Shown piece by piece: positions 8,867 to 59,239 of a stretch of 64,000 nt of DNA. This DNA is from an uncultured Archangium sp. (GTDB taxonomy: Bacteria; Myxococcota; Myxococcia; Myxococcales; Myxococcaceae). The translations under genes were made by a program, and so were the position numbers. The notes below the pieces were generated by a model. That model ran no database searches, was not told where the DNA came from, and worked only from the letters and a program-made list of their open reading frames with translations. The stretch spans positions 62,001 through 126,000 of the forward strand of contig CAIVGN010000072.1 of NCBI GenBank assembly GCA_903905455.1. Reading direction: 5' to 3'. The first letter of the stretch is position 1. Each line of letters starts with the position of its first letter.

Positions 8867-8901
8867 CTGCACACCACCCACCGGCCGGGCACGAAACACG
8901 G

Positions 8902-9135: not shown

Positions 9136-9136
9136 G

Positions 9137-9769: not shown

Positions 9770-10035
9770 GACTCAGCCCACCTGGAGAGAAAGCTTGCTC
9801 AACACGGGTTCACCCCTCGTGACACACCACATCGACTTCCCGTCTCTACCTGAAGCCGTCGTCACGTCGCGATCAAAACGACTGCACGTCAGAGGCCACG
9901 GGGCTGTCGGTTAGTTCATCGTCTTCAGCCTCGCAAGAACTGCGCACTGAGAACCCGGCGCGTCAGATCTGCGTTGTTTCACTTGGATCATTCCAGCGTG
10001 GCGACCGCGCCCGAAGGTTGCTTACTTGCGACCCC
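9770..10035. promoter_or_regulatory. Divergent intergenic region of electron-transfer locus 1
   Basis: 266 bases without a gene separate the NapC-like unit (leftward) from the outer-membrane barrel unit (rightward). The segment is less GC-rich than the genes around it, as expected for promoters. I see no confident -35/-10 pair, sigma-54 box or long palindrome, so it is listed only as the region that must carry the control of both arms of the locus. Confidence 0.45.
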
Positions 10036-11394: not shown

Positions 11395-11441
11395 AGCCCG
11401 TGATGCGTGACAGCAAGGTGGGCTCCGTGGCAGGGGGCGGT

Positions 11442-42357: not shown

Positions 42358-43088
42358 GGGGTGACGTCCACCCGCAGCTTTGCCACGACCACCCCCGCGT
42401 CGCCACCTGCCTTGATGGCTTCGAGTGCGGTGTCCACCGACATCGGCACCTCGGCGGCCACCAGCCACACCGAGACCGGGCCGCGCTCGCCGGCCAGCGA
42501 GAAGCCCAGCAGGCCCTCGTCGCCGCGCTCGAGCTCTTGCGCGCCCTGCACCAGGCCCAGCTGCGTCAGCTCGACGGGCACGCCGTCACCGCGCTGAATG
42601 AACAGCCGCGCCGGGCCCGCCATGGGCGAGCGCACCTGGAACACCAGGGCCGCGGCCGACGACACCGCCTGGCCGTCGTCGATGGGCGTCAGCGCCCCGC
42701 GGGCGCCCTTCACCGCGGCGCGCAGCTCGAGGGCATCCTGGCCGCTGCCCTTGAGCCCGGTCCACGGGTCGACTGCCACCTGGGGCTCGGCGCGCCACAG
42801 CAGGCCGCCCGCCACCAGCAACCCCAGGGCGGCGGCCACGGCGAAGACCAGGGAGCGGCGCGCGGGCTGCTGCTGGCGGCGGCGGAAGCGGGCCCAGGCC
42901 AGCTCGTCGGTGGAGGGCGCGCGGGGGGCGAGGGACAGCAGCACCCGGTCGATGTCCCCGTCGGCGCCGGGCAGGGCCGCGAGGAACGCGTCGCAGGCCT
43001 CGCAGCCAGAGGCGAGGTGCTCGAGCAGCGCGTCGTCGCGGGTGGCCTGCAGCGCGGTCCAGCGCGCGGCGTCGAGATGCGGGCTCAC
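42354..43088 (-). CDS. Anti-sigma-factor-like membrane protein
   Basis: 244 residues from GTG 43088, overlapping the sigma-factor stop (GTGA). The N-terminal cytoplasmic part has 'LLEHLASGCEACDAFLAAL', an H-x4-C-x2-C arrangement like the zinc anti-sigma (zf-HC2) motif. One membrane helix (about 82-99) and a periplasmic beta-rich domain follow. Known proteins of this design hold an ECF sigma factor inactive until a signal outside releases it. Gene order and coupling support that it controls the sigma factor directly upstream. Confidence 0.8.
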   Translation of the reverse strand: MSPHLDAARWTALQATRDDALLEHLASGCEACDAFLAALPGADGDIDRVLLSLAPRAPSTDELAWARFRRRQQQPARRSLVFAVAAALGLLVAGGLLWRAEPQVAVDPWTGLKGSGQDALELRAAVKGARGALTPIDDGQAVSSAAALVFQVRSPMAGPARLFIQRGDGVPVELTQLGLVQGAQELERGDEGLLGFSLAGERGPVSVWLVAAEVPMSVDTALEAIKAGGDAGVVVAKLRVDVTP

Positions 43089-43696
43089 GGTTCCCACCTT
43101 CGCTTGAGCACGTCGAGCATCAGCTGCCGGCGAATGCGGGCGCGAAAGCGCTCGAGGCGCATGGTCACCGCGCTCTTGCCCACGCCCATGCGCTCGGCGA
43201 TCTCCCGGGCCGAGAGCTCGCCCTCGACGTAGAACAGGCGCACGGTCTCCTTCTCGGGACCCTCGGGCAGCGACTCGATGAGGCGCCGCACCATGGAGAT
43301 GTCGAGCTCGAGCCGGGCCGATTCCGGGATGAGCTCGGCGGCGTCGTCTTGTTCCTGCGCGTAGCGCTCGCGCACCTCGTGGCGGCTGGCCTTGCGCGCG
43401 AGCGCCGAGAGGCCCCGGTTCCGCGCGATGGACAGGAGCCAGCCATCGAAGGCCTCGGGCGACTTGAGGTTGCCGACGGCCCGGAAGGCGCGAGTGAAAA
43501 CTTCCTGCACGAGGTCCTCCCTTTCGTCAGCGTCGAGCTGTGCAAACCCCTCGAGCAGGCGCAACACGCCGGGCCGCCATGTCAGGTACACCTGACGGCA
43601 GGCAGCCTGGTCCCCCCGCTTCACGCCATCCAACAGGCGGACGAGTTCTTCTCGGTCCGTCACGGTCAAGGACTCACTGAATGCGGCGCCGGCCAC
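43085..43696 (-). CDS. ECF-type RNA polymerase sigma factor
   Basis: 203 residues from GTG 43696; a start at 43663 (GTG) is possible. Region 2 is seen at about 22-100 ('YLTWRPGVLRLLEGF', 'DEREDLVQEVFTRAFRAVGNLKSPEAFDGWLLSIARN') and region 4 at about 135-195 ('LIESLPEGPEKETVRLFYVEGELSAREIAERMGVGKSAVTMRLERFRARIRR', a helix-turn-helix). It lies only 13 bp after the outer-membrane barrel gene of locus 2 and is followed without a gap by its anti-sigma-like partner. Its targets may include the locus itself, which is inference. Confidence 0.92.
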   Translation of the reverse strand: MAGAAFSESLTVTDREELVRLLDGVKRGDQAACRQVYLTWRPGVLRLLEGFAQLDADEREDLVQEVFTRAFRAVGNLKSPEAFDGWLLSIARNRGLSALARKASRHEVRERYAQEQDDAAELIPESARLELDISMVRRLIESLPEGPEKETVRLFYVEGELSAREIAERMGVGKSAVTMRLERFRARIRRQLMLDVLKRRWEP

Positions 43697-43709: not shown

Positions 43710-45380
43710 TCAGAAGCTGCCTCCGAGCTGAAACCCCACGCTGCCCAGGGGGGGCGCCGCCGACGCCAGGGGCAACCGGCCCATGAACACCACGCGACCC
43801 TTGAGGAATCTCCACGGCGCGACCTCCAGCGCCACGGAGGTGCCCAGCTCGTTGCCGGCCAGCCCGGCGCTGCCGGTGACGGCCTGCTGCTGGAACCAGC
43901 TGGCCCGGGTCACGAGGCGGAAGAAGCCCTGGGCGTTGACGCCTACCTGGAAGTACCCGTGCCGGCCGCGCACCCAGCCGAACTCCTCGAGGTACCCGAG
44001 GCTGACCCCCAGCGGCAGGCCGGCGATGCGGGGCACGGACACTTCCGGCCCCACGCGGCCCTGCACCAGGCCCGAGTCGAAGTCCGAGGCCAGGCCGCCC
44101 TGGGCGGCGACGAAGAGCCACGCGGTGGGCTGCCACACGGCGCTCAGGTCGGAGTGCAGCGCGCGCTGGCCCGGCGAGACGGTGCCCACCTCGACCAGGC
44201 CGGTCAGCGGGAGCCCGCGGTAGCGCACGGCGCCGTTGAGCCGCAGGGTCTCCATCGGGCGCCAGCCGACGTCGAGGCGCGCGGCGTCGATGCCGGCGGC
44301 GGCCTGCGTCTGGCCGAAGCCCAGCTCGACGGCGAGTGCGCCGTCGAGGTCCGCGCCCTTCCACAGGTTGGCGTTGACGGCGACCTCGGCCCGGCCCCCC
44401 AGCGTGTCGCGCAGCGACCAGCCGGCGCGCACCCCGAGCTGCACCAGGGTGGCGGTGGCGCCGGTGCCCGTCGAGAAGCGCGCCTTGGCGAAGGCACCCG
44501 CGGCCCACTGCGAGGGGGTGATGGTCAGCCGCGCCGCGTCGGGCAACAGGCCGCCGTAGGCGCCCAGCTCGAAGCCGTCGCCGAAGCGCCACGCGCCCTG
44601 CGCGCCGTCGATCACCATCAGCCCCGAGGTCGCGCGCAGCCAGGTGCGGCCGATGGCGCCGGAGATGGGCACGTCGGCGCGGCGGAAGCCGATCTCCAGC
44701 TGGCGCACGAGGAGCACCGGGGACTTCTGGTAGAAGGTGCGGGTGGCGTCGGGCCGCGCGCTGAAGTTGAGCGCGGTGATGTCGGCGCTCGCCCGCAGGC
44801 CGCGCCAGATCTCCACGTCGTAAGCGAGCAGGTCGAGCCGCTGCACGCCGAAGGGGCCCCCGGACAGGCCCCCGTAGGTGGTGTGCGAGAAGAGCGCCTC
44901 GACGCGCGGGCCCACGTTGCTCGACGAGCCGGCGGTGTCGAAGTCGCGCAGCTTCCAGTTCACCTCGTCGAAGTGCGCGGCGCGGCGGGCCAGCTCGGCC
45001 TCGGTGGGCAGCGCCACGGTGGCCACGGGGTTGTTCTCGGCGACGCGGCCGACGGCGAAGCGATCTCCCAGGCGCAGGCCGGGGCCCTCGCAGCGGGCGA
45101 AGTGCTCCGAGACGGCGGCCACCGTGCACTTGCCGGCGGGCTTTCCGCCGCGCACGAAGGTCAACGCCTGGCCCGGGGCGAGGCCGTCGAAGGCGCCGCG
45201 GTTCAGGAAGGCCGCGTCAGCGGTCACCGAGCTGACCTCGCCGGTGGCGCTGAGCACCACGCCCTTCGAGGCGGTGGCGGCCTTGGTGGTCTTGGTGGCC
45301 TTGACCTTCTTGGCGACGGGCTTCTTCGCCCAGCCGGGCGCGGCCAGCACCAGCATCACCACCAGCCAGCGCGCGCTCAC
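43710..45380 (-). CDS. Predicted outer-membrane beta-barrel of locus 2
   Basis: 556 residues from GTG 45380, overlapping the 10-heme gene by GTGA. The signal peptide ends at PGWA/KK. A Lys/Thr/Ala-rich linker and a small beta domain (about 38-115, 'GEVSSVTADAAFLNRGAFDGLAPGQALTFV') precede ~420 residues of alternating strands with terminal 'GFQLGGSF', a typical barrel end with final Phe. By position it is the porin of a conduit whose cytochromes are encoded directly upstream. The short periplasmic domain before the barrel distinguishes it from the locus 1 barrel. Confidence 0.75.
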   Translation of the reverse strand: MSARWLVVMLVLAAPGWAKKPVAKKVKATKTTKAATASKGVVLSATGEVSSVTADAAFLNRGAFDGLAPGQALTFVRGGKPAGKCTVAAVSEHFARCEGPGLRLGDRFAVGRVAENNPVATVALPTEAELARRAAHFDEVNWKLRDFDTAGSSSNVGPRVEALFSHTTYGGLSGGPFGVQRLDLLAYDVEIWRGLRASADITALNFSARPDATRTFYQKSPVLLVRQLEIGFRRADVPISGAIGRTWLRATSGLMVIDGAQGAWRFGDGFELGAYGGLLPDAARLTITPSQWAAGAFAKARFSTGTGATATLVQLGVRAGWSLRDTLGGRAEVAVNANLWKGADLDGALAVELGFGQTQAAAGIDAARLDVGWRPMETLRLNGAVRYRGLPLTGLVEVGTVSPGQRALHSDLSAVWQPTAWLFVAAQGGLASDFDSGLVQGRVGPEVSVPRIAGLPLGVSLGYLEEFGWVRGRHGYFQVGVNAQGFFRLVTRASWFQQQAVTGSAGLAGNELGTSVALEVAPWRFLKGRVVFMGRLPLASAAPPLGSVGFQLGGSF

Positions 45381-46261
45381 GGCAGGCCCTCGTTCTGGCG
45401 GTGGCACTCGGCGCACTTCCTGGCGACGTACGAGTAGCCCATGGCGTTGGGCTTGTTGGCGTGCAGGGCGTCGGTCTCGCTGACCGGGCCGGCGCCGCCG
45501 CCGTTGGTGTGGCAGCTGACGCACAGCGTGGCGGTGTTGGTGCGGCAGGTGCTCACCGGGGGGGTGGTGGCGCTGTGGCAGCCCAGGCAGGGCACCCCGG
45601 CGTGGGCACCGGCGCTGATGGGGAAGCAGGCGTCGTGGGTGACGAAGCGCGCCGGGGTGAAGCTCAGGGCCCCGTGGCACTGCTGGCAGCGCTGGGTGTC
45701 GAGCCCCAGGGCCAGGTGGTCGACGGCCTTGCCCACGGTGCGCAGGGCGGCGTCGTGGTGGCAGGCGGCGCAGTCCACGGTGGCGCGGCTGAAGCGGCGC
45801 TCGCGGGCCTCGCCGTGACACTCGACGCAGGGAATGGCGGCGTGGGCCCCGAAGAGCGGGAAGTTGGTGCGCCGGTGCGCGTCGGCGTCGAAGCGCGAGC
45901 GCCAGTCGGTGGTGTCGTGGCAGCTCTCGCAGCGGGCGCCCAGCTCGCCAGAATGCACGTCGCGGTGGCAGCCCACGCAGGTGCGCGGCAGGGGCACCGA
46001 GAAGTCGGTCACGTGGCAGGCCTTGCACGAGGTGCGCTCGTGCCGGCCGGTCAGGGAGAAGCCGGTGCGCTCGTGGTTGAAGCGCACCTCGCTCCACGAC
46101 GAGGTGGCGTGGCAGGCCGAGCACTGGGTCACGCCCTCGTGGCCCGGCTTGCTGAGCTTCGACAACGACTTGATCACGTTGGCCATGCCGGCCTTCGGGA
46201 CGTCGGCCTGGCCCGCGTCGGGCGCGGCGGCCACCACCAGCATCAACAACAGCGCCGTCAT
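45377..46261 (-). CDS. 10-heme c-type cytochrome
   Basis: 294 residues from ATG 46261, overlapping the 20-heme gene by ATGA. It has a signal peptide (MTALLLMLVVAAA) and no lipobox, so it is periplasmic or inserted in the barrel. I count ten CXXCH motifs over residues ~45-290. Length and heme number equal MtrA/DmsE-type decaheme cytochromes that fill outer-membrane porins, and the next gene encodes a barrel. Pairing with that barrel is a strong inference from gene order; direct homology to MtrA cannot be tested by eye. Confidence 0.92.
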   Translation of the reverse strand: MTALLLMLVVAAAPDAGQADVPKAGMANVIKSLSKLSKPGHEGVTQCSACHATSSWSEVRFNHERTGFSLTGRHERTSCKACHVTDFSVPLPRTCVGCHRDVHSGELGARCESCHDTTDWRSRFDADAHRRTNFPLFGAHAAIPCVECHGEARERRFSRATVDCAACHHDAALRTVGKAVDHLALGLDTQRCQQCHGALSFTPARFVTHDACFPISAGAHAGVPCLGCHSATTPPVSTCRTNTATLCVSCHTNGGGAGPVSETDALHANKPNAMGYSYVARKCAECHRQNEGLP

Positions 46262-48015
46262 GGCTCAAACCCCTTGAACGCGCCCTTGTGGAAGTCGGAG
46301 TGACACCCCTCGCAGGTCTGCGGCAGCGGCCGGTACTGCACCGCCATCACCTTCGCGGCCACCGGCACCTTCTTGTGGCACGCCTCGCACTTCGCCTTGC
46401 CGTGCTGCCCGTCGAGCAGGAACTGGGTGAAGGGCGGCTCGTGCACGAAGAGCACCTTCTTCCAGGCCTCGGTCACGTGGCAGGTGTCGCAGGCCTTCTT
46501 GCCGAACTGGCCGGCGTGCTCGTCGAGGTGGCAGCCGCGGCAGTCGCTCTCCAGCGGCTTGTAGCGCACCGGTTCCTGGGGGCTGGGCGCGACGTGGCAC
46601 TTCTCGCACTTCACCTTTTGGTGGGCGCCGGTCAGCGGGTACTTCGAGTCTTTCTGGTGGTCGAAGCGCAGCGCGGTGAAGGACGACACCTGGTGGCAGG
46701 TCTCGCAGCGCGTGTCCTTGAACTGGCCCTTGTGCAGGTCGGTGTGGCAGCTGTCGCAGCGCTCGGTGGGCTTGGTGAAGTCGAAGAGGGCCAGGCTGAA
46801 GAGCTCCTGGCGCTTGCGCTTCTTCAAGTCGGCGAGCACCGGCTTGGGGATCTTCGCCTTGAGGGCCGGCGTCGCGGGGTGGCAGCTGGCGCAGGGCACC
46901 ACCTGGTGCGCGCCCTCCAGCGGGTACTTCGTCCTGGCGTGCTCGGGCAGGCTGAACTTCGCGGGCACGAAGCCCTGCTCGCTGTGGCAGGTGGTGCAGT
47001 CGGGGGCCTTGCCGTTGACCGAGAGCTGCCCCTCGTGGGCGTCGGGGTGGCAGGTGTTGCAGGTCTCGTGGGCGAGGCCCTTGAACTTGGCGGGCACGCC
47101 GGGGAACGGGCCGTGGCAGCTGCGGCACTCGACGTCGAGGTGCGCGCCCTTCAAGGGGAACTTGGTCTTCTCGTGGAACTCGCGTTCCTTGCCCGCGTTG
47201 CGCAGGATGTTCCAGCCTTCGACCACGTGGCAGCTCTGGCAGCGCAGGCCGAAGCGGGCCTCGTGCGGGTCCTTGTGGCAGTCGAGGCAGCTGCGGTGCT
47301 CGACGGGGGCGAAGCGCAGGAAGGTCTCTGACTTGGGCGCGGGGAAGCCGTGGGCCTCGGTGTCCTTTTCCGAGTCGTGGCAGGCGGTGCACTTCACCTT
47401 GATGTGCTTGCCCTTGAGCGGGTAGTCGGTGTCGTCGTGGTTGAAGCCGGGGGTGGGCTTCCAGGCCTTCTCCACGTGGCAGTACTCGCAGTCTTCCTGC
47501 TGCTGGCCGCGGTGCTCGTCGAAGTGGCAGTCGGGGCAGCCCGAGCCCAGGCCCAGGCGGGTGCCGGGGCGCTTCTCGAGGAGCTTGAGGGCGGTGGTCC
47601 ACACGATGAGCCGCTTCTCGTGGCACGCGCTGCACTTGGCCTCGGTGTGCGCGCCCTTGAGCGCCCAGCCGGTGCGCAGGTGGTTGAAGCCCTTCTCGCC
47701 GCCGGCGCCCCACTCGATGAGGTTGGAGGCGAGGCCCTGGTGCTCGCGGTGGCAGGTCTCGCAGTTGCGCTTCTCGGCGGCGATGTGCCCGTGGAGCCCC
47801 AGGCCCTTGCCCAGGCGCGGCTGCAGCTCCTGGTGACACGACAGGCAGGTCTCCTGGCTCAGTTGCCCGCCGGCCGGGTGACACTTGGTGCACTGCGAGA
47901 GCCCCTCGAGCGAGGTGTGGGGCTTGCTCAGCTCGCCGGGAGAGAACAGGTCGGCGCGCGCGGACCCGGCGCACACCACGGCCCAGAGGACCAACCACCA
48001 CGACCGAAAGCTCAC
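46258..48015 (-). CDS. 20-heme c-type cytochrome
   Basis: 585 residues from GTG 48015, overlapping the flavoprotein fusion stop by GTGA. The signal peptide (…LVLWAVVCAGSARA/D) has no lipobox. There are twenty CXXCH motifs. A recurring ~45-residue unit 'FNHDxTxYPLKGxHxxVKCxxCH' appears at least six times (for example 'FNHDDTDYPLKGKHIKVKCTACH', 'FDHQKDSKYPLTGAHQKVKCEKCH'), so the chain grew by repeat of a two- or three-heme unit. It is probably a periplasmic wire between the inner-membrane fusion protein and the decaheme/barrel pair. Confidence 0.93.
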   Translation of the reverse strand: MSFRSWWLVLWAVVCAGSARADLFSPGELSKPHTSLEGLSQCTKCHPAGGQLSQETCLSCHQELQPRLGKGLGLHGHIAAEKRNCETCHREHQGLASNLIEWGAGGEKGFNHLRTGWALKGAHTEAKCSACHEKRLIVWTTALKLLEKRPGTRLGLGSGCPDCHFDEHRGQQQEDCEYCHVEKAWKPTPGFNHDDTDYPLKGKHIKVKCTACHDSEKDTEAHGFPAPKSETFLRFAPVEHRSCLDCHKDPHEARFGLRCQSCHVVEGWNILRNAGKEREFHEKTKFPLKGAHLDVECRSCHGPFPGVPAKFKGLAHETCNTCHPDAHEGQLSVNGKAPDCTTCHSEQGFVPAKFSLPEHARTKYPLEGAHQVVPCASCHPATPALKAKIPKPVLADLKKRKRQELFSLALFDFTKPTERCDSCHTDLHKGQFKDTRCETCHQVSSFTALRFDHQKDSKYPLTGAHQKVKCEKCHVAPSPQEPVRYKPLESDCRGCHLDEHAGQFGKKACDTCHVTEAWKKVLFVHEPPFTQFLLDGQHGKAKCEACHKKVPVAAKVMAVQYRPLPQTCEGCHSDFHKGAFKGFEP

Positions 48016-50222
48016 GTGAAGATCCACCGATAGCCAAGGAAGAGAGACACGCCGATGTGCGCGGCGATCAGCACCACGAGCACCACGGCGAGCACCACGT
48101 GAAACACGCGCCAGGTGGCCAGCAGCACCTTGAGCGAGCGGAAGAAGGTCACCTGCGCCTGCAACCGGCGCAGCTTGTGGAACGAGTCGGTGAAGTCGTG
48201 GGCGTGGTGCGGGCTGGGGAACATCGAGCGCACGTGGAGCAGGTGCCGCGCGTCGGACACGCGCTGCACCGGCAGGTGGAGGAAGAAGCGCAAGAGCGAC
48301 TTCTGCGTGGGCCGGGTGACGGCCGAGGCGATGAGGGTCTCGACCTCGGCGGGTGACGAGAGCGACGCCGCCGCCCCGCCCAGCCGCTCGCTCAGGCGCT
48401 GCCAGCGCCGCGAGAGCTCGTCGAGCTCGCCTTCCTTGCCCTCGCCGCTGGGCACGATGCCGTAGATGAAGCGACCCACGATGCCGGTGAGCACCACCAC
48501 CGACAGCGACAGGGCGGTGAGCGTGGCCAGCTGGTTCTTCGACTGGAACGCGGCGTGGAAGACGATGACCAGGGGGCTCAAGAAGCCGACGAACTGGTGG
48601 AAGGTGAGCCAGGTGCGGATGGTGCTGAAGCCCTTGAGCCGCTCCCAGCGCTTGCGCACCGCGTAGATGAAGTTCGAGAGCATCACCACGGTGCTCACGA
48701 TGCCCACCCCGTGACCCCAGGGGCCGGCGGGCTTCAGGAAGCGGTGCGCGGGGTGCAGCAGCCGCTCGGGCTGGGCGAGCCGGTAGTAGTCCCAGCCCAC
48801 GACCGCGAGCATGGCCACGGTGAGGATGCCCAACACGAAGAGCGCGAAGGACAGGCGCCGGTGCGACTTCTCTTTCTCGTCCACCACCGCGCTGCCGCGC
48901 TTGGCCTTGGCCCCCAGCGACTCGCCGTGGAGCTTGGTGAGCCCCACGCCCATCTTGCTCAGGAACTCGGTGGGCACCTCGCCGCCGAGGCAGGCGATGA
49001 TGAAGTCGTTGGGCAGGTCGATGAGCTTGCCGCCCTTTTCGAGGGACACGCTCGTGGCGGTGACCTGCTTGATGTTCGAGCCCATGAAGGCGAACACCCG
49101 GCCCTGCTCGGTCAGCTCCTTGAAGCGGCGCTTGTTGGCCTCGCGGGCCTTGCCGAACTCGGGCTGGCGGTAGCTCAGGGCCACCTCGGCGTCGCTCTCT
49201 TCGGCGATCTGGATGGCGGCCTCGAGGGCCGCGTCGCCGCCGCCGACCACCAGCACGCGCGCGCCCTCGTACTGCTGGGCGTCGATGAGGCGGTAGGTGA
49301 CCTTCTCGAGCTCCTCGCCGGGCACGCCCATCTTGCGGGGGCTGCCGCGGCGGCCAATGGCGAGCACCACCTTCTTGGCGCGCAGGGTGCCCTTGGTGGT
49401 GAAGATGGTGAAGTCGCCGTCGTTGCCGTCGATGCGCTCGACCTTCACGCCGGTGTTGACCCGCACGTCGGCCTTCTTGCAGGCCTCGACCCAGCTCTCG
49501 AGCAGCTGTTCCTTCGAGATGAGCGGGGCCCCGAACTTCCCGAAGTAGGGCAGCTCCACGCGCTCGGTCATCACGACCTTCTGGCGCGGGTAGTGCGAGA
49601 TGGTGCCGCCGAAGCTCTCCTGCTCCACCACGCGGAACTTGAGGCCCTGTTCCTTGAGGCCCAGGGCGGTGGCGAGGCCCGAGGGCCCGGCGCCGACCAC
49701 CACCACGTCGTCGATCTCCCCCTGCTGGCCCTTGAGCTGCGAGCCGAGGTGCCGGGCGCACTGCAGGCCCTGGGTGATGGCGTTCTTGATGAGGCCCATG
49801 CCGCCGAGCTCACCGACGATGTGCACCCCGGGGCGGCTGCTCTCGAAGACGTCGCTGAGCTCGGGCAGCTCCACGCCGCGCTTGGACGAGCCGAACACGA
49901 GGGTGATGGCGTTGACCGGGCATTCCACCGAGCACTTGCCGTGGCCGATGCAGGCCGAGGGGTTGATCAGCGCGGCCTTGCCGTCGACCACGCCCAGGAT
50001 GTCGCCTTCCGGGCAGACCGCGGTGCACGAGAGGCTGCCGATGCACTTGTCGGGGTCGATGACGGGGTGCAGCGTGGGCGCCTCGGCACGGCCGTCCTTG
50101 TGCACCTGTGCCAGGGCCAGAGAGTCGGCGGCCTCCCGCTTCGCGCGGCTCCGCGTCATGAACCACGCGATGCCCGCGCCGAGAAAGACGAGGCCCAACA
50201 ACAAGAGAAGATCGATGCTCAT
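48012..50222 (-). CDS. Ferredoxin-flavoprotein-cytochrome b fusion, inner-membrane electron input
   Basis: 736 residues from ATG 50222. Order: N-terminal membrane helix (3-22); two iron-sulphur motifs (Cys60/66/70 with Pro, Cys91/97/101 with Pro), each CX5CX3CP, so the second Cys of the usual CX2CX2CX3CP is Ser or His; an FAD-binding thioredoxin-reductase-like domain (GAGPSG 177-182) with an NAD(P)-binding site (GGGDAA 327-332); then a membrane part with helices at about 458-476, 504-521, 541-558, 566-590 and 702-730 carrying His in FHQFVGF, FHAAF, FHVVLAV and AAHIGV as likely heme b ligands. It could move electrons between NAD(P)H, quinone and the 20-heme cytochrome. It heads the locus 2 unit. 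Confidence 0.88.
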   Translation of the reverse strand: MSIDLLLLLGLVFLGAGIAWFMTRSRAKREAADSLALAQVHKDGRAEAPTLHPVIDPDKCIGSLSCTAVCPEGDILGVVDGKAALINPSACIGHGKCSVECPVNAITLVFGSSKRGVELPELSDVFESSRPGVHIVGELGGMGLIKNAITQGLQCARHLGSQLKGQQGEIDDVVVVGAGPSGLATALGLKEQGLKFRVVEQESFGGTISHYPRQKVVMTERVELPYFGKFGAPLISKEQLLESWVEACKKADVRVNTGVKVERIDGNDGDFTIFTTKGTLRAKKVVLAIGRRGSPRKMGVPGEELEKVTYRLIDAQQYEGARVLVVGGGDAALEAAIQIAEESDAEVALSYRQPEFGKAREANKRRFKELTEQGRVFAFMGSNIKQVTATSVSLEKGGKLIDLPNDFIIACLGGEVPTEFLSKMGVGLTKLHGESLGAKAKRGSAVVDEKEKSHRRLSFALFVLGILTVAMLAVVGWDYYRLAQPERLLHPAHRFLKPAGPWGHGVGIVSTVVMLSNFIYAVRKRWERLKGFSTIRTWLTFHQFVGFLSPLVIVFHAAFQSKNQLATLTALSLSVVVLTGIVGRFIYGIVPSGEGKEGELDELSRRWQRLSERLGGAAASLSSPAEVETLIASAVTRPTQKSLLRFFLHLPVQRVSDARHLLHVRSMFPSPHHAHDFTDSFHKLRRLQAQVTFFRSLKVLLATWRVFHVVLAVVLVVLIAAHIGVSLFLGYRWIFT

Positions 50223-50372: not shown

Positions 50373-53300
50373 ATGGCTCCCATGAGAACGACTCTTCCGA
50401 TCAGCACGGCGCTGTTCTCCTACCTCTTCATCGCGGGCTGCTCGTCGACCCCCACGGACCCGAAATTGCCGGCGACGGTGAACGCGGCCAACCACCGCTG
50501 GTTCCCCATCTCGACGGGGGCGATGCACGAGTACGGGAAGACGATGGGCCCCGACGGGGCGTTGACCTGCGACGGCTGTCACCGGCCGGGCGCCGAGAGC
50601 TTCACCGCGGTGCGCTGCGATCAATGCCACAAGCACACCGAGGCCATCACCCAGCGCCTGCACCTGGGCATTCCCAGCAGCTTCACCGTCGACACCAGCG
50701 CCGTGAGCGACCCCGACCTGAAGGCGGAGCTCCGCGGCGCGAGCTGCTTTGGCTGCCACCCCACGGGGGAGAAACGCCCCTTCAGCCACACCCTGATCAC
50801 CAGCGAATGCGCCCAGTGCCACGCGGTGGACAACGCCTTCGCGGCGCTGCCGAAGGCGGGCTTCACCCACCGCGACGTGGGCGCGGCGGACTGCGCTGCG
50901 TGCCACGTCACGACCGCGTGGTCGACGGTGAGCGCGGCCCCGTCGAACGTGTCCGATCCGGCGCATGACCTGACGGTGACGGGCCTCTTGCCGACCTTCA
51001 CGGGCACCACCATCTCTCGCGTGTCTGCCCTGGCGCAGACGCTGCCCATGCCCATGAATCACCTGGCGACGTCCATCGACGCGGGGGTGCTCACCGACTG
51101 TGCCGCCTGTCACCAGGAAGCCAACACGGGCGTCTACTTCCCCGGCCTGCTGCACTCGTCGCTGGCCAACGTCGGCCAGGCCCAACCTGCGCAGTGTGCG
51201 GAGTGCCACGCGCGGTCGGTGCCCCTGGGCTTCGTCGGGGCCTTCGCCACCGCGCCGGCGCGGACGCCCGCGACGGGCGAGATGCGGCACGACGCCGTGG
51301 CGTGGGCGAACGGCGCCCCCGGCGCGACCCGGATCGTGACCCAGGACTGTGCGACCTGCCATCACACCCCCAGCCCGCTGCTCGCCGCGACCTGGCGGGT
51401 CGTCGAAGTCGACGGCGGGCCGGCGCAGTTCCACGCCGCCCTCACGGCGGCCGCCCAGGCCCAGCCCACGTCGTGCCTCGACTGCCACGCGAACTCTCGC
51501 CCGGTGGCTGCGTTGACTTCGATGAACGCCGCGCTGCCGGCGGGAATGACCTTCGACCACGGCAATGGCGACGCGCTCCAGGACTGCGTGCTGTGCCACA
51601 GCTCCACCAGCGCCTGGAGCGGCGGCAAGTTCCACCTCGTGGGCAGTGCGGCGCCCGCGAGCTGCGTGGGGTGCCACGAGGCGAAGCGCCCGACCTCGAC
51701 CACCGGGTGGACGAGCACCACCTACCAGGCCTCGCCTTTTGACTACGGCACCAACGCCCAGGGCATCACCCACGGCGGCGGCGAAGACTGCGCCGTGTGC
51801 CACGGCGGCAGCACCCAGACCTGGGCCGGCGGCCACTTCCCCCACGGCGTCGGCACGCTGGCCACGCAGTCGTGCAGCGCCTGCCACACCAGCCAACGCC
51901 CGACGGCCCCGGTGCCGGGGGTGGGCAACAACTTCAACCACACGCTCAATGGCACCGGCGACTGTCGCGCGTGCCACCAGGCGACCGTGACCGCCGGTCG
52001 CTACGTCGACCTGAACCCCATCCCGGGCGGAGATTGGAAGGGCGGCAAGGAGTACCCCGGTGACGTGGTGGTGACCTCGCCCACCCAGTTCATCGCGCTC
52101 CAGACGTGGACGCTGCAGCGCAACGCCGCTCGCTTCGTGACGGGCATGACCACGCAGAACGCGACGCTGTTCAACGCGATGCTGCACACCTCGACGGCCA
52201 TCCCCGCGGCGTTGTTCCCCGGGCCGGCCAACGCCCCGGACAACAGCACCTGCTTCCACTGCCACACCAACGTCGCGGGCACGGTCACCTCGTTCGCCGA
52301 CGGCAAGTACCACGCCGTGCTCACCGACGCGGGCGTGCCCCAGCCGACGGCCCGGTGCCTCGATTGCCACGAGCAGATGCGGCCCGACATGATCGTCGAG
52401 AAGTCGGCCTCGGTGCTCCAGCCCATGGACCACTCGGCCACCTTCACCGCGCCGGTGACCATCGCCGGCCAGACCGTCAGCGGGGTCGCGACCCTCGACT
52501 GTTCGGTCTGCCACGCATCGCCGGGCAGCACCTGGGGCGACGGCAAGTTCCACGCGAAGATCAGCACCGCCACGCCCGCCGACTGCGTGACCTGCCACTA
52601 CCCGCTGATGGCCAGCCCCCAGGCCGACGTCACCACCGGCACCACCTTCGCCATGAAGCACCGCTCGACCCAGGTGACGGTGCAGAAGTGCGAGACCTGC
52701 CACACCACCGCGCTCTCGAAGAGCGCCATGGCCTTCACCCCCAGCACCGGCGCGGCCCTGTGGAAGACCGGGACCCTGCACCCCCACGTCGCGATGCAGC
52801 CGGCCAGCTGCGTCGAGTGCCACGCCCTGTCCGAGCCGACGATGGCCACGCAGGGCACCACCACCTGGACCTTCACCACCGGCGGCACGGCGACCAACAG
52901 CGCCCAGTGGATGAGCCACCCCATGGCCGACGTCGCGGGGAAAGACTGCGCGGCCTGCCACCTGGCCGACGCGAAGCCCACCGGCAGCGCCTGGAACAAG
53001 GGCACCGACCTGCACGCGAAGGTCCCCAGCCCCACGGGCTGCGCCGCGTGTCACGGCACGAGCAACGGCCGCGGCACCGTCATCGGGACCAACAACAACC
53101 TGCCGAGCGGGCTCACCAACTCCCAGGTGACCACCACCGCCGGCCCCTTCCCCGGGGTGAAGGACCAGCTGAACCACGCCGACATCAACGTCACCGCCCG
53201 CGACTGCAGCTTCTGCCACACCCAGAAGGGCACCTCGACGGTCGCCGGCGTCCAGGGCCAGGAATGGCGCCAGGCCACCTTCCACAAGAACTTCAGCGCC

Positions 53301-54017
53301 GCGTCACCGCTGGTGATGAACACCACCACCGGCCGCTGCAGCACCTGCCATTTCAACCTGAAGCCCGGCGCCACCTTCGCGGCCTTCGACCACGCGACGT
53401 TCACCAGTGCCTCGGGCACCCCGGACTGCAGTTCCTGTCACTCGTGGCCGGGCACCAGCGCCATGACCCCCAACTGGCTGGGCGCGGCGGCGATGCCGGC
53501 CTTCATCGCGGTGGGTGGATTCACCATCTCGCAGCCCCCTGCGACCGCGGCCAACACGCTGCAGACGGGCATCGCGAACCTGCCGCATCCCGCGGTCGCC
53601 ACTGGCGTGCCGTGCACCGCCTGCCACGCGCAGGCGGCCGGTGGGCGCCACGCGCTGGGCTACGATCACCTCTCGTCGCTGGCCAGCACGCGCTGCGGCG
53701 CCTGTCACGAGGCCGGCAGCGACCTCGTCGCGACGCCCTGGAATGGCGCGACCACCGAGGCCACGGGCGCAGGCGATACGCGGCCCTTCACCCTGCCCAG
53801 CGTCAGGGCCACCTACAAGGGCAACACCGCGACGGAGACCTACCCGAAGCACTTCTTCCCCATCGACTGCAAGGAGTGCCACCTGGTCCCCGCTGGCAAC
53901 GGCCTCACCACCACGGGCACGGTCTACCAGGCCGCCTGGAAGTTCCCCCACACGCAGGCGAAGATGACCAACCCGTCAACGTGCCTGACGTGCCACCCGG
54001 GCGGCGTCCCCAACTAG
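50373..54017 (+). CDS. 29-heme c-type cytochrome, lipoprotein
   Basis: 1214 residues from ATG 50373; ATG 50382 would also work. The signal peptide ends LFIAGC (lipobox). I count 29 CXXCH motifs spread over residues ~68-1205, on average 40 residues apart and therefore much looser than in the other cytochromes here. The spacers are Thr/Ser/Ala-rich and beta-like. A repeated motif 'FNHxx…DCxxCH…WxGGKFH' is visible. Long, lipid-anchored, loosely spaced multiheme proteins of this kind are candidates for surface-exposed or filament-forming cytochromes. It is divergent from the locus 2 unit, so co-regulation is likely. Confidence 0.93.
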   Translation: MAPMRTTLPISTALFSYLFIAGCSSTPTDPKLPATVNAANHRWFPISTGAMHEYGKTMGPDGALTCDGCHRPGAESFTAVRCDQCHKHTEAITQRLHLGIPSSFTVDTSAVSDPDLKAELRGASCFGCHPTGEKRPFSHTLITSECAQCHAVDNAFAALPKAGFTHRDVGAADCAACHVTTAWSTVSAAPSNVSDPAHDLTVTGLLPTFTGTTISRVSALAQTLPMPMNHLATSIDAGVLTDCAACHQEANTGVYFPGLLHSSLANVGQAQPAQCAECHARSVPLGFVGAFATAPARTPATGEMRHDAVAWANGAPGATRIVTQDCATCHHTPSPLLAATWRVVEVDGGPAQFHAALTAAAQAQPTSCLDCHANSRPVAALTSMNAALPAGMTFDHGNGDALQDCVLCHSSTSAWSGGKFHLVGSAAPASCVGCHEAKRPTSTTGWTSTTYQASPFDYGTNAQGITHGGGEDCAVCHGGSTQTWAGGHFPHGVGTLATQSCSACHTSQRPTAPVPGVGNNFNHTLNGTGDCRACHQATVTAGRYVDLNPIPGGDWKGGKEYPGDVVVTSPTQFIALQTWTLQRNAARFVTGMTTQNATLFNAMLHTSTAIPAALFPGPANAPDNSTCFHCHTNVAGTVTSFADGKYHAVLTDAGVPQPTARCLDCHEQMRPDMIVEKSASVLQPMDHSATFTAPVTIAGQTVSGVATLDCSVCHASPGSTWGDGKFHAKISTATPADCVTCHYPLMASPQADVTTGTTFAMKHRSTQVTVQKCETCHTTALSKSAMAFTPSTGAALWKTGTLHPHVAMQPASCVECHALSEPTMATQGTTTWTFTTGGTATNSAQWMSHPMADVAGKDCAACHLADAKPTGSAWNKGTDLHAKVPSPTGCAACHGTSNGRGTVIGTNNNLPSGLTNSQVTTTAGPFPGVKDQLNHADINVTARDCSFCHTQKGTSTVAGVQGQEWRQATFHKNFSAASPLVMNTTTGRCSTCHFNLKPGATFAAFDHATFTSASGTPDCSSCHSWPGTSAMTPNWLGAAAMPAFIAVGGFTISQPPATAANTLQTGIANLPHPAVATGVPCTACHAQAAGGRHALGYDHLSSLASTRCGACHEAGSDLVATPWNGATTEATGAGDTRPFTLPSVRATYKGNTATETYPKHFFPIDCKECHLVPAGNGLTTTGTVYQAAWKFPHTQAKMTNPSTCLTCHPGGVPN

Positions 54018-54070: not shown

Positions 54071-57000
54071 TCAGAGCTCCATCCACGCCCCGCCGTTGCC
54101 GACCACCTGCCACGCGCTGCCTGACTCAGCGGTGCCCTTGTGCCCGATGCCGTTGAGGCTTCCCGAGAGCGGCTGCCACCGGGTGGCCCAGGTGGCCCCC
54201 AGGTCCGTCGAGACGAACAGCCCATTGATCGTCACCGCGCCGAAGATCGGTCCGGCGATGCCCCGTTCCATGACGACCACGTCGCGGAAGGCGAGGCGGG
54301 AAGCGAGGTACGCCTGGCCCTGGGTCCAGGTGGCGCCGCTGTCGCTGGTGCGGAACGTCACGCCGCCCGCGCCGACGGCCAGGCCGACCTCGCCGTTGGC
54401 GTCGAGGGCGACGCCGTTGAGGGCGTAGCCACCCGCCATCGTCTGCACGGCACCCCACGCCATGCCTGCGTACGGGCGCACCACCCCGCCACTGCCGACG
54501 ATGACGCCGAAGCGCGCGCTGAGGCCCTGCTTGAGAACGACGCCCGCGTAGTTCGAGGTGCTCGAGCCGCTGGCGGGGTCGACCGACCACGTCGTGCCGT
54601 TGAAGGTGAGAATCGTGCCGGCGTCGCCGACCGCGACGCACCAACTGCCCGAGGTCGGAGGACACGAGACGCTGGTGAGCCGGGCGGTGGTGAGGCCGCT
54701 GCCCAACTGCGTCCACGTCATGCCGTTGTTCGAGCTGTGGAGGATGACGCCGGCGTCGCCGACGGCGATGAAGGAGGTCATCGAGCGTCGCACCACCGCG
54801 TTGAGGTGGGTGGTGACGGGCGTCGGCACCTTCGTCAGCCCTCCCGCATTCTCCTTGTAGAGGCTGCCGTTCACGCCGACGGCGTAGGCGATGTTGACGT
54901 TGTCCATGTCAATCGCCACGTCGAGGAGGTCGGTGGCGTCGCCGGAGCTGTAGTCGGCCCAGGTGCCGCTCGGCCGGTTCGACGAGACGTGGCCATTGAG
55001 GCCGACCGCGAGGTGGTTCGCGCCGGTCCAACTGAAGACGGACATCACGTTCGACACGGGTGAGAACAGGTCGGTCACGACGCTGGTGGACAGGGTCACC
55101 ACCGAGACGCGCGGAGCGGCGTTGTCGCTCCCTCCGATGAGCGCGGTGGTCGCCGAGAGGCCTGCCACCGAGTTCACGTCGTAGCCATTGAGCGCCGCGA
55201 TGCCGAGCGACGCCCAGGTCAAGCCGCCGTCGGTGGAGCGGATCAGCCCCGAGACGGTGGGCCCGACCTGGCCGCTGATGAGCAGCGTGGAGGTGCCGGG
55301 CAACTGCGTCACCGACCGGAAGCTCACGGCCGCGTGCGTCGCTGGCGCCGTGACGGTGGTCCACGTCGCGCCGCTGTCGGTGGACCGGAGAATCGTCCCC
55401 AGGTCACCCACGGCGAAGACGGTGTTCGCGGTGCACGCGGCGGTCGTGCCGTCACAGCGCGCCGTCGCGCGCAGCGTGGCGGTGGTGCCCGACGTCACCG
55501 GCGCGAAGTCGCCCGGCCCGATGGCGCCCGTCGCCCGCACGATGACGCCGCTCGCGCCGACGGCGATCCACCGGCGCGAGTTGAGCGGCGCGCCGGAGCT
55601 GCCCGCGTAGGTGAACCCATAGAGGTCACGCGTGGTGCCGGTGGCCCTGGCGACGAAGGTCGCGCCGTCGTCGTTGCTCACCGCGATGTGTCCGCCCGCC
55701 CCCGCCACCCACAACCGGGTGCCGTCGGAGTGCAGCGCGCGGATGTCGCCGTCGGTCATGCCGTCGCGTCGCGTGGTGAGTTGATCGGGGGACGTTCCCG
55801 AATACAGCGCGCCGCCGCCGCCGCCCATGAAGAGCACGCTCGCGTGGCGGGTGACCGCGAAGAGATCGTTCGGCGTGGGCAGGCGATTGAAGATGCGGTG
55901 CCTGGGGAACTGGGGCGTGCCCCCCCCTTCGGCGCTCACGGCGGACACGTTGCCCACCGAGTCGGTCACGCGCGCCACGATGTACCGCGTGACGCCATTG
56001 GACAGCTCCAGGTCGACCCGGGTGCTCAGGGGAATGGCCGTCCACGTGTAGGGGCCACCCGACGTGAGGCTCATGCCGTACTCGGCAGACACGGTGGGCG
56101 CGTCCGAGTTGCCCGAGCCAGCCACGCTCACGCTCACCAGGCGGTGATCCGCGGCGGTGTTCAGCAACGCGCTCGGCGCGACGTTGTCCAACATCACGGT
56201 GTCCATCGCGGGGATGGGGCTCACGTTGCCCACGCTGTCGCGGAAGTACGCGTAGAGCGTGTACTCGAACTGCGCCTGGTTCATGGTCACGCTCGAGGTC
56301 GTGGCGTACGGCACGAAGCACGCGTCGTTCCGGAGCGGCGCGACGGGGACACCGGACGAAGTGCGGAGGAACTTCAGGCACATGTGCGTCACGGCGCCCA
56401 TGTCGTCGGTCGCGGAGAGCGCCACGCTCACCGTCGCGGTGCCCACGTAGCCGACGCCGTTGGCGAGCACCGCGGTCGCGACCGGGCCGGTCTGATCCAG
56501 GTAGACAGAAGCGCTCAACGTGGGGCTCACGTTGCCCGCCGCGTCACGCACGCGCACCGAGATGGTCTTGGTGCCGTCGCCCGCGGCGACCTGGAGCCCG
56601 ATCAGCGCCGGGGTCCCGATGACGGGCGCGGTGGCGAACGCCGTGTCGCTGCCTTCGCCTCTCCCGACGCCGCTGCCGGTGTCGTTCGCGGCGTAGTTGA
56701 TGTTCACGTAGCGGTTGCCCACCATGCTGGCTCCTCCCTCGAGGACGAGGTTGCTCAAGGTCGGCGGGGTCCAGTCGAGCACGATGGAGTCGGACACGAT
56801 GTTCGATGCGTTGCCCGCAGGGTCGATGACGCGGATGAACCGGGACACGGTGCCTTCGCTCGCGCCGAGGTCGATGACGGGGTTGGCGCTGTCGAGCGGA
56901 CCGCAGTTCGTCGGAGGACTCGCCTCGCCCTGGCAGAACACGAAGGTCGAGTCCGTCGTCTCGCCGACGGTGAAGCTCGCCACCCCCTGCGAGGTGGTGG

Positions 57001-59239
57001 AGTAGTCCCAACTCGCCCCGTTCGGGTTGAACGCGCCGTAGAGGATGAAGCCGCTGAGCACCGGGGCCTGGGTGTCGAGCGTGATGGTAACGGTGGTGGT
57101 GACGACGTTGCCCGCCACGTCGGTCGCGCGCAGCGTGACGGTCTTCAGGCCATCCATCCCACTGAGCACCCAACTCGAGGGAGAGCCGGTGAGCGCGGTG
57201 AAGGTGGTGCCGTCATTCGAGGCCTCGACTCGCAGCACGCCGCTCGAGGCGTCCTGCACGGCATACGTCAACGAGACGGTGGTGAGGTGCGTGAAGGGCG
57301 CGCCCGCGTTGAGGGCCGCGCCCTGGAGCGTCGGCCCCAGGGTGTCGAGGAGGATGTTCGCGGTGAACGTCGCGACGGCCGCGTTGCTGTCGCGCACTTC
57401 GACGCTGACGCTGTGCACGCCCGGCGTCGAGGGAATCACCCAGGCCTTCGACGTGGCGTAGGCCTCGAGCGCGGTGAAGGCGCCGCTGTCGTTGGCGAAG
57501 CGCATCTGGGTCATGGAAGCTCCGCTGCTCGGGGTGGCGGTGAGGGCGAGCGTGACGGCGGTGGTGTTCGTCGCCTGGGCACCGGCGTTGATGGTCAGCG
57601 TGCCGCTGACGGCGCCGGCAGCGACGGTGAACGCCGCCCCGGCCCCGAACTGTTGCCAGGCGCTCGCGGTGCCTTGCTGGTCGACCGCGCGCGCGCGCCA
57701 CTTCCACGCCCCGGGGGCCAGCGTCGGGAGCGTGACGGTGAGGGTGCCCTCTGCGGACAGGGGCGTGGCCTGCGTGGGCGCCCCCGTGAAGACGTTCGCG
57801 TTGGGCACGACCTCGACCTCGAGCTTCACCGTCGCGTTCTCGGGATCATCGATGGCGGCGCGCAGGCGGGGCGCCGCGGTGACGGTCGCCCCGGCGGCGA
57901 CGGCGATGTTCGCCCCGTCGACCTGTGCCAGGGCGGAGAGGAGGGGAACCCCGTTCGCAGGTGGCGTGACGCTCACCGTGAAGCTGCGCGAGACGCTGAG
58001 CGCGCCATCGCTGACGGTGACGGTGATGATGCGCGACTCGGTGATGGAGCTGCCAGGTGCGAGCGTGAGCGTGGTGCCGGTTCGCGAGGCCCACGCCGGC
58101 AGGTTCGGGGTCGTGATCTGCAGCGGGTCGCCGTCAGGATCGACCGCGACCAGGGTGACGGTCTGCGTGGTGCCGGCGGTCATCGCCACGTCGGCCAGGG
58201 GCTGCAGCGTGGGCGGGTTGTTGACGTTGTTGACGGTGACGCCGAGCGTGCCGTCGGCCGTCGCCAGACCGTCGCTGACCCGCACCACGAGCAGGTAGGA
58301 GCCGCCAGCGCCAGTGGCCGGAGAAAGCGTGAGCGTGCCGTTCAGCACGGTGGCGAACGAGGGCCCCGTGACGAGGGAGTAGGTGAGCGGGTCTGCGTCG
58401 AGGTCGGTGGCGGAGAGCGAGACGGGCAGCGTGTTGCCTTCGCTCACCGTGACCGGCACGAGCGTCGGCCAGGTCGGGGCGCGGTTGGTGTTGGTGATGG
58501 TGATGGGCAGCGTGGTGTTGGTCGACGTCGTGCCATCGTTCGCGCTGATCACCACGGCGTGAAGGCCGCTCGCGGAGAAGTCGGGCGCGAGGGCGAGCGT
58601 GGCGCCGGACACCTGCGCGAAGGTGGGGCCGGTGACGATGGAATAGACGAGCGTGTCCCCGTCAGCGTCGGTGGCAGCGAGCGGGATCATGCGGGTCGCG
58701 TTCTCGGCGACGGTGAGCGAGCCCGGTGAGGGCCACGCCGGAGCGCGGTTGCTGTTGGTGACGGTGATCCTGAAGGTGGCCTGGGCGTTGTTCTGGCCGT
58801 CGGTGACCTGCACGACGACCAGGTGCGTGCCGGCGCTGCTGAAGTCCGGCGCGAGGGTGATGGTGGAGTTGGTGAGCGAGGCGAACATCGGCGCGCTGAG
58901 GAGCTCGAAGGTGAGCGCATCGCCGTCCGGGTCGCTCGCCACGAGGCTGAGCATCTGCGCGGCGCCTTCGGCCATCGTGAGGTCAGCGATTGGGCTCAGC
59001 ATCGGTGGCTGGTTCGCGCCGCCGTCGCTGGCGCCACCGCCGCCGCCCGTCGCGGAGCCCCCGCCCGTCGCTGAGCCACCGCCCGTCGCGGAGCCGCCAC
59101 CCGTCGCGGAGCCGCCACCAGTGGCGTCGCCACCTCCCGCAGCGGAGCCTCCGCCTCCGCCCGTGCCTTCGGGAGGAGGCGCGGAACAGCCGACGAGGGC
59201 CAGGAATCCGGCGAAGAGCAGCGCGCGCGCGAAGTGCAT
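54071..59239 (-). CDS. Giant lipoprotein: cadherin/Ig-like repeats plus Ycf48-like propeller
   Basis: 1722 residues from ATG 59239. Signal peptide MHFARALLFAGFLALVGC (lipobox LVGC), then a GGGSAT linker. Four dystroglycan/cadherin-like Ig repeats follow (about 78-440), each with 'DPDGDxLxFxLxxxPxFA…L.LAPDFS.AG.H.VVV…VTDG'. Several bacterial Ig-like 3 domains come next (about 440-1130, 'VSLTYAVQDASSGVLRVEASNDG'). The C-terminal ~600 residues are a propeller with recurring 'AVGDxGxILxSxDxGxTWxx' blades like Ycf48 or sialidase Asp-box proteins. The role is probably surface adhesion or scaffolding. It is convergent with the 29-heme gene (53 bp between stops). Confidence 0.85.
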   Translation of the reverse strand: MHFARALLFAGFLALVGCSAPPPEGTGGGGGSAAGGGDATGGGSATGGGSATGGGSATGGGSATGGGGGASDGGANQPPMLSPIADLTMAEGAAQMLSLVASDPDGDALTFELLSAPMFASLTNSTITLAPDFSSAGTHLVVVQVTDGQNNAQATFRITVTNSNRAPAWPSPGSLTVAENATRMIPLAATDADGDTLVYSIVTGPTFAQVSGATLALAPDFSASGLHAVVISANDGTTSTNTTLPITITNTNRAPTWPTLVPVTVSEGNTLPVSLSATDLDADPLTYSLVTGPSFATVLNGTLTLSPATGAGGSYLLVVRVSDGLATADGTLGVTVNNVNNPPTLQPLADVAMTAGTTQTVTLVAVDPDGDPLQITTPNLPAWASRTGTTLTLAPGSSITESRIITVTVSDGALSVSRSFTVSVTPPANGVPLLSALAQVDGANIAVAAGATVTAAPRLRAAIDDPENATVKLEVEVVPNANVFTGAPTQATPLSAEGTLTVTLPTLAPGAWKWRARAVDQQGTASAWQQFGAGAAFTVAAGAVSGTLTINAGAQATNTTAVTLALTATPSSGASMTQMRFANDSGAFTALEAYATSKAWVIPSTPGVHSVSVEVRDSNAAVATFTANILLDTLGPTLQGAALNAGAPFTHLTTVSLTYAVQDASSGVLRVEASNDGTTFTALTGSPSSWVLSGMDGLKTVTLRATDVAGNVVTTTVTITLDTQAPVLSGFILYGAFNPNGASWDYSTTSQGVASFTVGETTDSTFVFCQGEASPPTNCGPLDSANPVIDLGASEGTVSRFIRVIDPAGNASNIVSDSIVLDWTPPTLSNLVLEGGASMVGNRYVNINYAANDTGSGVGRGEGSDTAFATAPVIGTPALIGLQVAAGDGTKTISVRVRDAAGNVSPTLSASVYLDQTGPVATAVLANGVGYVGTATVSVALSATDDMGAVTHMCLKFLRTSSGVPVAPLRNDACFVPYATTSSVTMNQAQFEYTLYAYFRDSVGNVSPIPAMDTVMLDNVAPSALLNTAADHRLVSVSVAGSGNSDAPTVSAEYGMSLTSGGPYTWTAIPLSTRVDLELSNGVTRYIVARVTDSVGNVSAVSAEGGGTPQFPRHRIFNRLPTPNDLFAVTRHASVLFMGGGGGALYSGTSPDQLTTRRDGMTDGDIRALHSDGTRLWVAGAGGHIAVSNDDGATFVARATGTTRDLYGFTYAGSSGAPLNSRRWIAVGASGVIVRATGAIGPGDFAPVTSGTTATLRATARCDGTTAACTANTVFAVGDLGTILRSTDSGATWTTVTAPATHAAVSFRSVTQLPGTSTLLISGQVGPTVSGLIRSTDGGLTWASLGIAALNGYDVNSVAGLSATTALIGGSDNAAPRVSVVTLSTSVVTDLFSPVSNVMSVFSWTGANHLAVGLNGHVSSNRPSGTWADYSSGDATDLLDVAIDMDNVNIAYAVGVNGSLYKENAGGLTKVPTPVTTHLNAVVRRSMTSFIAVGDAGVILHSSNNGMTWTQLGSGLTTARLTSVSCPPTSGSWCVAVGDAGTILTFNGTTWSVDPASGSSTSNYAGVVLKQGLSARFGVIVGSGGVVRPYAGMAWGAVQTMAGGYALNGVALDANGEVGLAVGAGGVTFRTSDSGATWTQGQAYLASRLAFRDVVVMERGIAGPIFGAVTINGLFVSTDLGATWATRWQPLSGSLNGIGHKGTAESGSAWQVVGNGGAWMEL
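59032..59131. repeat. Tandem repeat encoding the GGGSAT linker
   Basis: Five to six 18-bp units (GAGCCGCCACCCGTCGCG and variants on the plus strand) encode the Gly/Ser/Ala/Thr linker behind the lipidated Cys of the giant lipoprotein. Same design as the linker at 27113-27306, with different codons. Confidence 0.85.

Follow-up and report, generated by a model that had tools for sequence, protein, structure and literature searches.

How PCC3 porin–cytochrome conduits, which are widespread in bacteria, are linked to metabolism has been a question since 2017. We analyzed a 64,000-nucleotide stretch of contig CAIVGN010000072.1 from an uncultured Archangium sp. (assembly GCA_903905455.1; hereafter the window), in which one gene makes this question testable with a single protein. 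The gene, at positions 48012–50222 of the reverse strand, encodes a fusion of a ferredoxin, an FAD/NAD(P) domain and a cytochrome b, labeled FAM here. FAM probably forms the inner-membrane terminus of a PCC3-like conduit for extracellular electron transfer, in which an NAD(P)H–FAD–ferredoxin head, with predicted cofactors and a predicted electron route, is fused to a five-helix, two-heme-b membrane protein of the type called IMP.

PCC3 was described by He et al. in 2017 as a set of four genes, which encode a porin, an extracellular multiheme cytochrome (median of 34 hemes), a periplasmic multiheme cytochrome (median of 21 hemes) and the IMP, a protein of ~300 residues with five helices, two WX3HX13H motifs and an SGXXG motif on the fourth helix (PMC5566968). 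FAM has a clear coding composition (GC3 0.97, GC2 0.43), and its hydropathy profile indicates one N-terminal helix and five further helices (residues ~5–23, 457–475, 504–522, 541–559, 565–583 and 709–727). The membrane half contains two histidine pairs, H542/H556 and H708/H722, each in the arrangement W-x3-H-x13-H, and all four histidines are conserved across the family. Alignment of residues 445–736 with three IMPs from Pseudomonadota and the IMP of Emticicia identified invariant W-H-H, G-x-x-G-R and W-H-H positions. Each PCC3 component has a counterpart at the locus: a β-barrel gene, cytochromes with 20 + 10 and 29 hemes, and a five-helix IMP with the expected motifs, save for a threonine in place of the serine of SGXXG. 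Based on motifs and gene context, we assign the membrane half to the PCC3 IMP family, the published PCC3 set being matched by description. The five helices and histidine pairs given for this half in the preliminary description hold, and its match with the IMP means that it is no free-standing novelty. When the IMP alignment was used as a profile against the PDB, the only matches were chains of GPCR fusions, most of them carrying cytochrome b562; we judged these spurious.

The open reading frame, Pfam matches and hydropathy agree with the earlier proposal that one chain joins an N-terminal helix, two CX5CX3CP motifs, a TrxR-like FAD/NAD(P) domain and five helices with His pairs. As Arg/Lys-rich sequence follows the first helix (residues 5–23), the positive-inside rule predicts that the domains after it are cytoplasmic. 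Head and IMP are separate genes elsewhere. On plasmid pEMTOL02 of Emticicia oligotrophica (NC_018749), a 281-residue protein matches FAM residues 450–735 (E 4e-35), and the neighboring gene encodes a 440-residue protein that matches residues 1–433 (E 2e-113); 23- and 40-heme cytochromes and a 538-residue barrel-like protein follow. This conduit is plasmid-borne, and a CcsA-type cytochrome c maturation gene lies directly before it (L082, 9968–13054). The split set, complete or partial, is present in 15 Bacteroidota loci and in several myxobacterial loci (L064, L066, L067, L070), and one locus of Pseudomonadota (L097) contains the IMP, a 24-heme and a 34-heme cytochrome, an 842-residue porin-like protein and the head, all on one strand. 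Given the separate genes, we rejected the reading of FAM as a free-standing novel enzyme; judging from these matches, FAM is a fusion of a head and an IMP that co-occur as separate genes in other genomes. The fused and split states need five label changes on a tree with an uncertain root, which neither supports nor excludes a single fusion event.

Co-occurrence was assessed in two phyla. Among 398 genomes of Pseudomonadota, the head (E < 1e-100) and the IMP (E < 1e-60) are limited to the same five genomes, with the caveat that three of these five IMPs contributed to building the IMP profile; the two genes are on different contigs in two of the five. Among 296 genomes of Bacteroidota, the head (E < 1e-60) is found in 27 and the IMP (E < 1e-20) in 28, including all 27 with the head, and the lone exception (G733) has a distant head relative (E 3e-52). 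Across both phyla, head and IMP are on different contigs in three genomes. The chance probabilities are ~1e-11 (Pseudomonadota) and ~2e-37 (Bacteroidota), values that exaggerate the surprise, since the genomes are non-independent through shared ancestry. Because head and IMP co-occur almost perfectly, the head looks like an unrecognized fifth component of PCC3, which would provide a cytoplasmic NAD(P)H end like that of NADPH oxidases (NOX) and ferric reductases. In our literature searches, the head was nowhere described as a conduit part, and the descriptions of PCC3 that we consulted, including PMC5566968 and PMC8788666, list four components without it. In FAM, a known but unexplained conduit part, the PCC3 IMP, is thus combined with an NAD(P)H head that seems to have been overlooked.

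FAM is the first of four same-strand genes with consecutive 4-bp overlaps, followed by the 20-heme, 10-heme and barrel genes; its overlap with the 20-heme gene, already claimed in the preliminary description, has the sequence GTGA. Counting partial and head-only matches, 38 of the 145 genomes from the order contain FAM-like genes, as do 55 of the 195 from the phylum. Genes in the related loci were called by homology, given the high GC content of this DNA. Wherever both genes could be located (30 of 30 loci), a 20- or 30-heme gene directly follows FAM on the same strand; this set includes one cytochrome cut by a contig end (L080) and two records of one contig (L010 and L059). Nearby are the 10-heme gene and the barrel, often together with a 27–31-heme gene. 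As the 20- and 10-heme genes form one 30-heme gene directly after FAM in five loci (L010, L052, L059, L062, L065), the operon tolerates fusion or fission of neighboring genes. The architecture of FAM is not due to chance, since six cluster cysteines and four membrane histidines are conserved and gene order is the same in 30/30 loci. The conserved neighborhood supports a joint function of the operon genes.

In the proposed route, NAD(P)H would most likely reduce the FAD in the cytoplasmic head, and electrons would pass singly from FAD via two three-Cys iron–sulfur (Fe-S) clusters to the cytoplasm-side heme b and from there to the periplasm-side heme b. They would then cross the periplasm along the 20-heme cytochrome that spans it, traverse the outer membrane through the 10-heme cytochrome inside the barrel, and reach the outside via the 29-heme lipoprotein at the surface. 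Such an arrangement corresponds to a NOX or ferric reductase that feeds a wire. We lean modestly towards outward flow over inward flow to NAD(P)+. Since the export of electrons from the cytoplasm would diminish the membrane potential, FAM would then most plausibly serve to balance redox state or to reduce extracellular acceptors, and not to conserve energy at this step. More broadly, it is possible, and we put it forward tentatively, that PCC3 conduits are not (only) quinone-linked: an overlooked fifth component, the NAD(P)H–FAD–dicluster-ferredoxin protein, may wire the NAD(P)H pool via two b hemes to the surface, in myxobacteria as one polypeptide with two [3Fe-4S] clusters.

Several points weigh against these proposals. 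The AF2 model of FAM, built from eight input sequences, is poor (mean pLDDT 57), and the flavin domain alone is interpretable, matching YpdA/TrxR. The Pfam Ferric_reduct match to the membrane half is sub-threshold (18 bits against a cut-off of 28, E 0.003). The Pseudomonadota partners in the IMP alignment come from genomes with PCC3 gene content, and the named PCC3 proteins (such as Slit_0867–0870) were matched by description. If NAD(P)H electrons flowed outward with no quinone step, FAM would conserve no energy, and the literature model makes the PCC3 IMP quinone-linked (PMC5566968). In a rather unlikely alternative, the conduit imports outside electrons and the IMP passes them to the quinone pool, while the head plays an accessory part, either reducing NAD(P)+ or adjusting the exchange. 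In the model of He et al., the IMP of iron oxidizers is a cytochrome b with two hemes that is active on quinones (PMC5566968), and inward flow is the working assumption in the literature on Gallionellaceae PCC3. However, the head is a near-obligate partner of the IMP, fused to it here, so that a purely quinone route leaves it unexplained; no quinone site is identifiable; and the PCC3 genes of Sideroxydans ES-1 are down-, not upregulated on Fe(II), which argues mildly against Fe(II) oxidation there (PMC8788666). The preliminary description had proposed a single-chain, NAD(P)H- or quinone-linked electron module for extracellular transfer. The module itself is well supported, as FAM heads a complete conserved operon and fuses genes that co-occur elsewhere, and of the two links that to NAD(P)H is the more probable.

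The nearest solved structures to the flavin domain are those of YpdA/Bdr (1.3e-29, 262 aligned residues), although FAM scores 151 bits against the TIGR04018 equivalog cut-off of 339.9. The GxGPxG and GGGDxxxE motifs are conserved among 77 heads, R352 is present in all 77, and a basic residue occupies position 358 in 76; the latter, together with the conserved R352, suggests NADPH as the substrate, without proof. This kinship with YpdA bacillithiol-disulfide reductases, and the CcsA-type maturation gene that adjoins the IMP and head genes in Emticicia, would fit a head that acts as a disulfide reductase for cytochrome c maturation or thiol repair, placed in the operon as multiheme cytochromes need reduced cysteines. 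We considered this role and judged it improbable. FAM has no CXXC, and family position 181, aligned with the cysteine of YpdA GGGPCG, is Ala, Ser or Gly (65, 10 and 2 heads, respectively); with both the TrxR cysteine pair and the YpdA cysteine missing, disulfide chemistry by this domain is unlikely. It would also leave the ferredoxin and the fused heme-b domains without a role.

The two ferredoxin motifs each lack the second of four cysteines, replaced by Ser63 in motif 1 and His94 in motif 2 (the earlier “Ser54-type” numbering was incorrect). Among the 77 heads, the six remaining cysteines are retained, save for a few alignment gaps, as are the CP prolines over three phyla. His94 is present in 73 heads from three phyla; the four exceptions, explained by one change on the tree, are distant myxobacterial relatives of 959–985 residues (L072, L073, L074, L075), which have cysteine at the second position of both motifs. 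Three of these relatives (L072, L073, L075) have 33- or 36-heme cytochromes nearby. Residue 63 is serine in 40 of the 41 myxobacterial fusions with data. Elsewhere it is Ser/Cys/Ala in 10/9/1 heads of Bacteroidota and Ser/Cys in 3/2 of Pseudomonadota, with Thr or Gly in a few others, and its distribution needs eight changes on the tree. A second FAM copy in one genome (G128, L080) has cysteine for Ser63 and retains His94 (CIGCTSC / CIGHGRC). Thus, of the two replacements, the histidine is family-wide, whereas the serine is fixed in the myxobacterial fusions and alternates with cysteine elsewhere. Neither of the refuting observations named in the preliminary description was made: the six cysteines are invariant, and the membrane histidines are conserved.

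Free ferredoxins with serine or histidine at the second-Cys position bind [3Fe-4S] clusters (PMC6237146, PMC9868604); potentials are more positive with histidine and lower with serine (PMC6237146), and the histidine of M. tuberculosis FdxE is not a cluster ligand (PMC9868604). By analogy, motif 2 most likely carries a [3Fe-4S] cluster, and motif 1 most likely carries [3Fe-4S] when residue 63 is serine and [4Fe-4S] when it is cysteine. With a Ser cluster of low potential and a His cluster of higher potential, we infer that electrons would run downhill between FAD and heme b. No clear earlier example of two [3Fe-4S] clusters within one ferredoxin domain emerged from our literature search. Each motif is short of one cysteine in four, but a ferredoxin domain that no longer binds Fe-S clusters and is merely structural is very improbable, given the six cysteines and both CP prolines kept over three phyla and the [3Fe-4S] clusters of free CXX[S/H]XXC(X)nCP ferredoxins (PMC6237146, PMC9868604).

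Table 1. Features of FAM and of the adjoining conduit genes, in window coordinates
Feature	Position	Strand	Basis
FAM, ferredoxin–FAD/NAD(P)–cytochrome b fusion, 736 aa	48012..50222	(-)	ATG to TGA
N-terminal transmembrane helix, residues 5-23, then Arg/Lys-rich segment	50154..50210	(-)	hydropathy
Dicluster ferredoxin domain, residues 52-110	49893..50069	(-)	Pfam Fer4_10 2.6e-11
Motif 1, C60-IGS-LS-C66-TAV-C70-P71, Ser63 in second-Cys slot	50010..50045	(-)	sequence and family counts
Motif 2, C91-IGH-GK-C97-SVE-C101-P102, His94 in second-Cys slot	49917..49952	(-)	sequence and family counts
YpdA/TrxR-like FAD and NAD(P) domain, residues 171-432; GAGPSG, GGGDAALE, R352, without CXXC	48927..49712	(-)	Pfam Pyr_redox_3 2e-41, structure matches
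PCC3-type IMP domain, five helices, residues 450-736	48015..48875	(-)	alignment and hydropathy
W538-x3-H542-x13-H556, predicted heme b ligand helix	48555..48611	(-)	family conservation; PMC5566968
T579-G-x-x-G583-R584 (TGIVG 579-583), SGXXG-type, Thr in place of Ser	48471..48488	(-)	alignment; PMC5566968
W704-x3-H708-x13-H722, predicted heme b ligand helix	48057..48113	(-)	family conservation
20-heme periplasmic cytochrome c, 585 aa, signal peptide, 4-bp overlap with FAM	46258..48015	(-)	heme motif and signal
10-heme cytochrome c, 294 aa, signal peptide, 4-bp overlap with 20-heme gene	45377..46261	(-)	heme motif and signal
Outer-membrane beta-barrel, 556 aa, signal peptide, C-terminal Phe, 4-bp overlap with 10-heme gene	43710..45380	(-)	AF2 and Foldseek
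29-heme cytochrome c lipoprotein, lipobox IAGC, divergent from FAM, predicted surface cytochrome	50373..54017	(+)	heme motif and lipobox

With its neighbors, the FAM locus is a whole porin–cytochrome conduit, consisting of the inner-membrane end, a periplasmic wire, a barrel-embedded cytochrome and a surface cytochrome, whose locations are predicted from signal sequences and analogous systems. AF2 modeled the barrel protein with ~18 long β-strands at a modest pLDDT of 61, and the top Foldseek matches are all outer-membrane barrels; Pfam gave no match for this protein. The barrel gene is directly followed by a gene for an ECF-type sigma factor (43085–43696), a possible regulator of the operon. 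On the other side, a 1722-residue Ig/cadherin-repeat protein with a match to the PSII_BNR (YCF48-like) domain (54071–59239) is convergent with the 29-heme gene. The window also contains a second multiheme locus (7328–12494), which encodes a 23-heme lipoprotein-like protein (7328–8905, reverse strand), a NapC/NirT-type triheme membrane protein (9137–9769, reverse strand), a 458-residue signal-peptide protein (10018–11394, forward strand) and a 12-heme protein with an MtrC/MtrF domain (11259–12494, forward strand). No sequence match between this locus and the PCC3-like operon was found at E 1e-5.

FAM suggests that the PCC3 “bacterial wires” couple directly to the cellular NAD(P)H pool and offers a prediction of how cells might exchange electrons of this pool with their surroundings. 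The head may serve as a cytoplasmic marker gene for PCC3 genomes. Additionally, the near-invariant histidine at one putative cluster and the Ser/Cys switch at the other would provide a set of natural variants in which to study the control of potential by Fe-S ligands.

Among known systems, PCC3 shares with the FAM locus a porin, large multiheme cytochromes both outside the cell and in the periplasm, and an IMP whose five helices bear two WX3HX13H motifs and, on the fourth, GXXG. The published IMP, of ~300 residues, has no assigned function, whereas that of FAM is fused to a ferredoxin–FAD/NAD(P) head; the periplasmic cytochrome is split into 20 + 10 hemes here, and SGXXG becomes TGXXG. CymA, CbcL and ImcH are likewise inner-membrane start points of extracellular electron transfer; however, these quinol oxidases are multiheme c-type cytochromes (PMC6295460), and FAM contains no CXXCH motif. 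The CXX?XXC(X)nCP ferredoxins of mycobacterial P450s share serine or histidine at the second-Cys position with the other three cysteines kept, and bind [3Fe-4S] (PMC6237146, PMC9868604), but they are free single-cluster proteins, whereas FAM has two such motifs in one dicluster domain inside a membrane reductase. YpdA/Bdr and the TrxR-like ferredoxin–NADP reductases have the same FAD/NAD(P) fold; the FAM domain differs in lacking redox-active cysteines and in its fusion to a ferredoxin and a cytochrome b. Ferric reductases and NADPH oxidases (FRD, PF01794) likewise combine cytoplasmic NAD(P)H–FAD with two b hemes on two HX13H helices, and their electrons leave the cytoplasm. Beyond the below-cut-off Pfam match, FAM differs from them in a flavin domain of the YpdA/TrxR rather than the FNR type, in two predicted Fe-S clusters inserted into the path, and in a multiheme wire as the putative electron acceptor.

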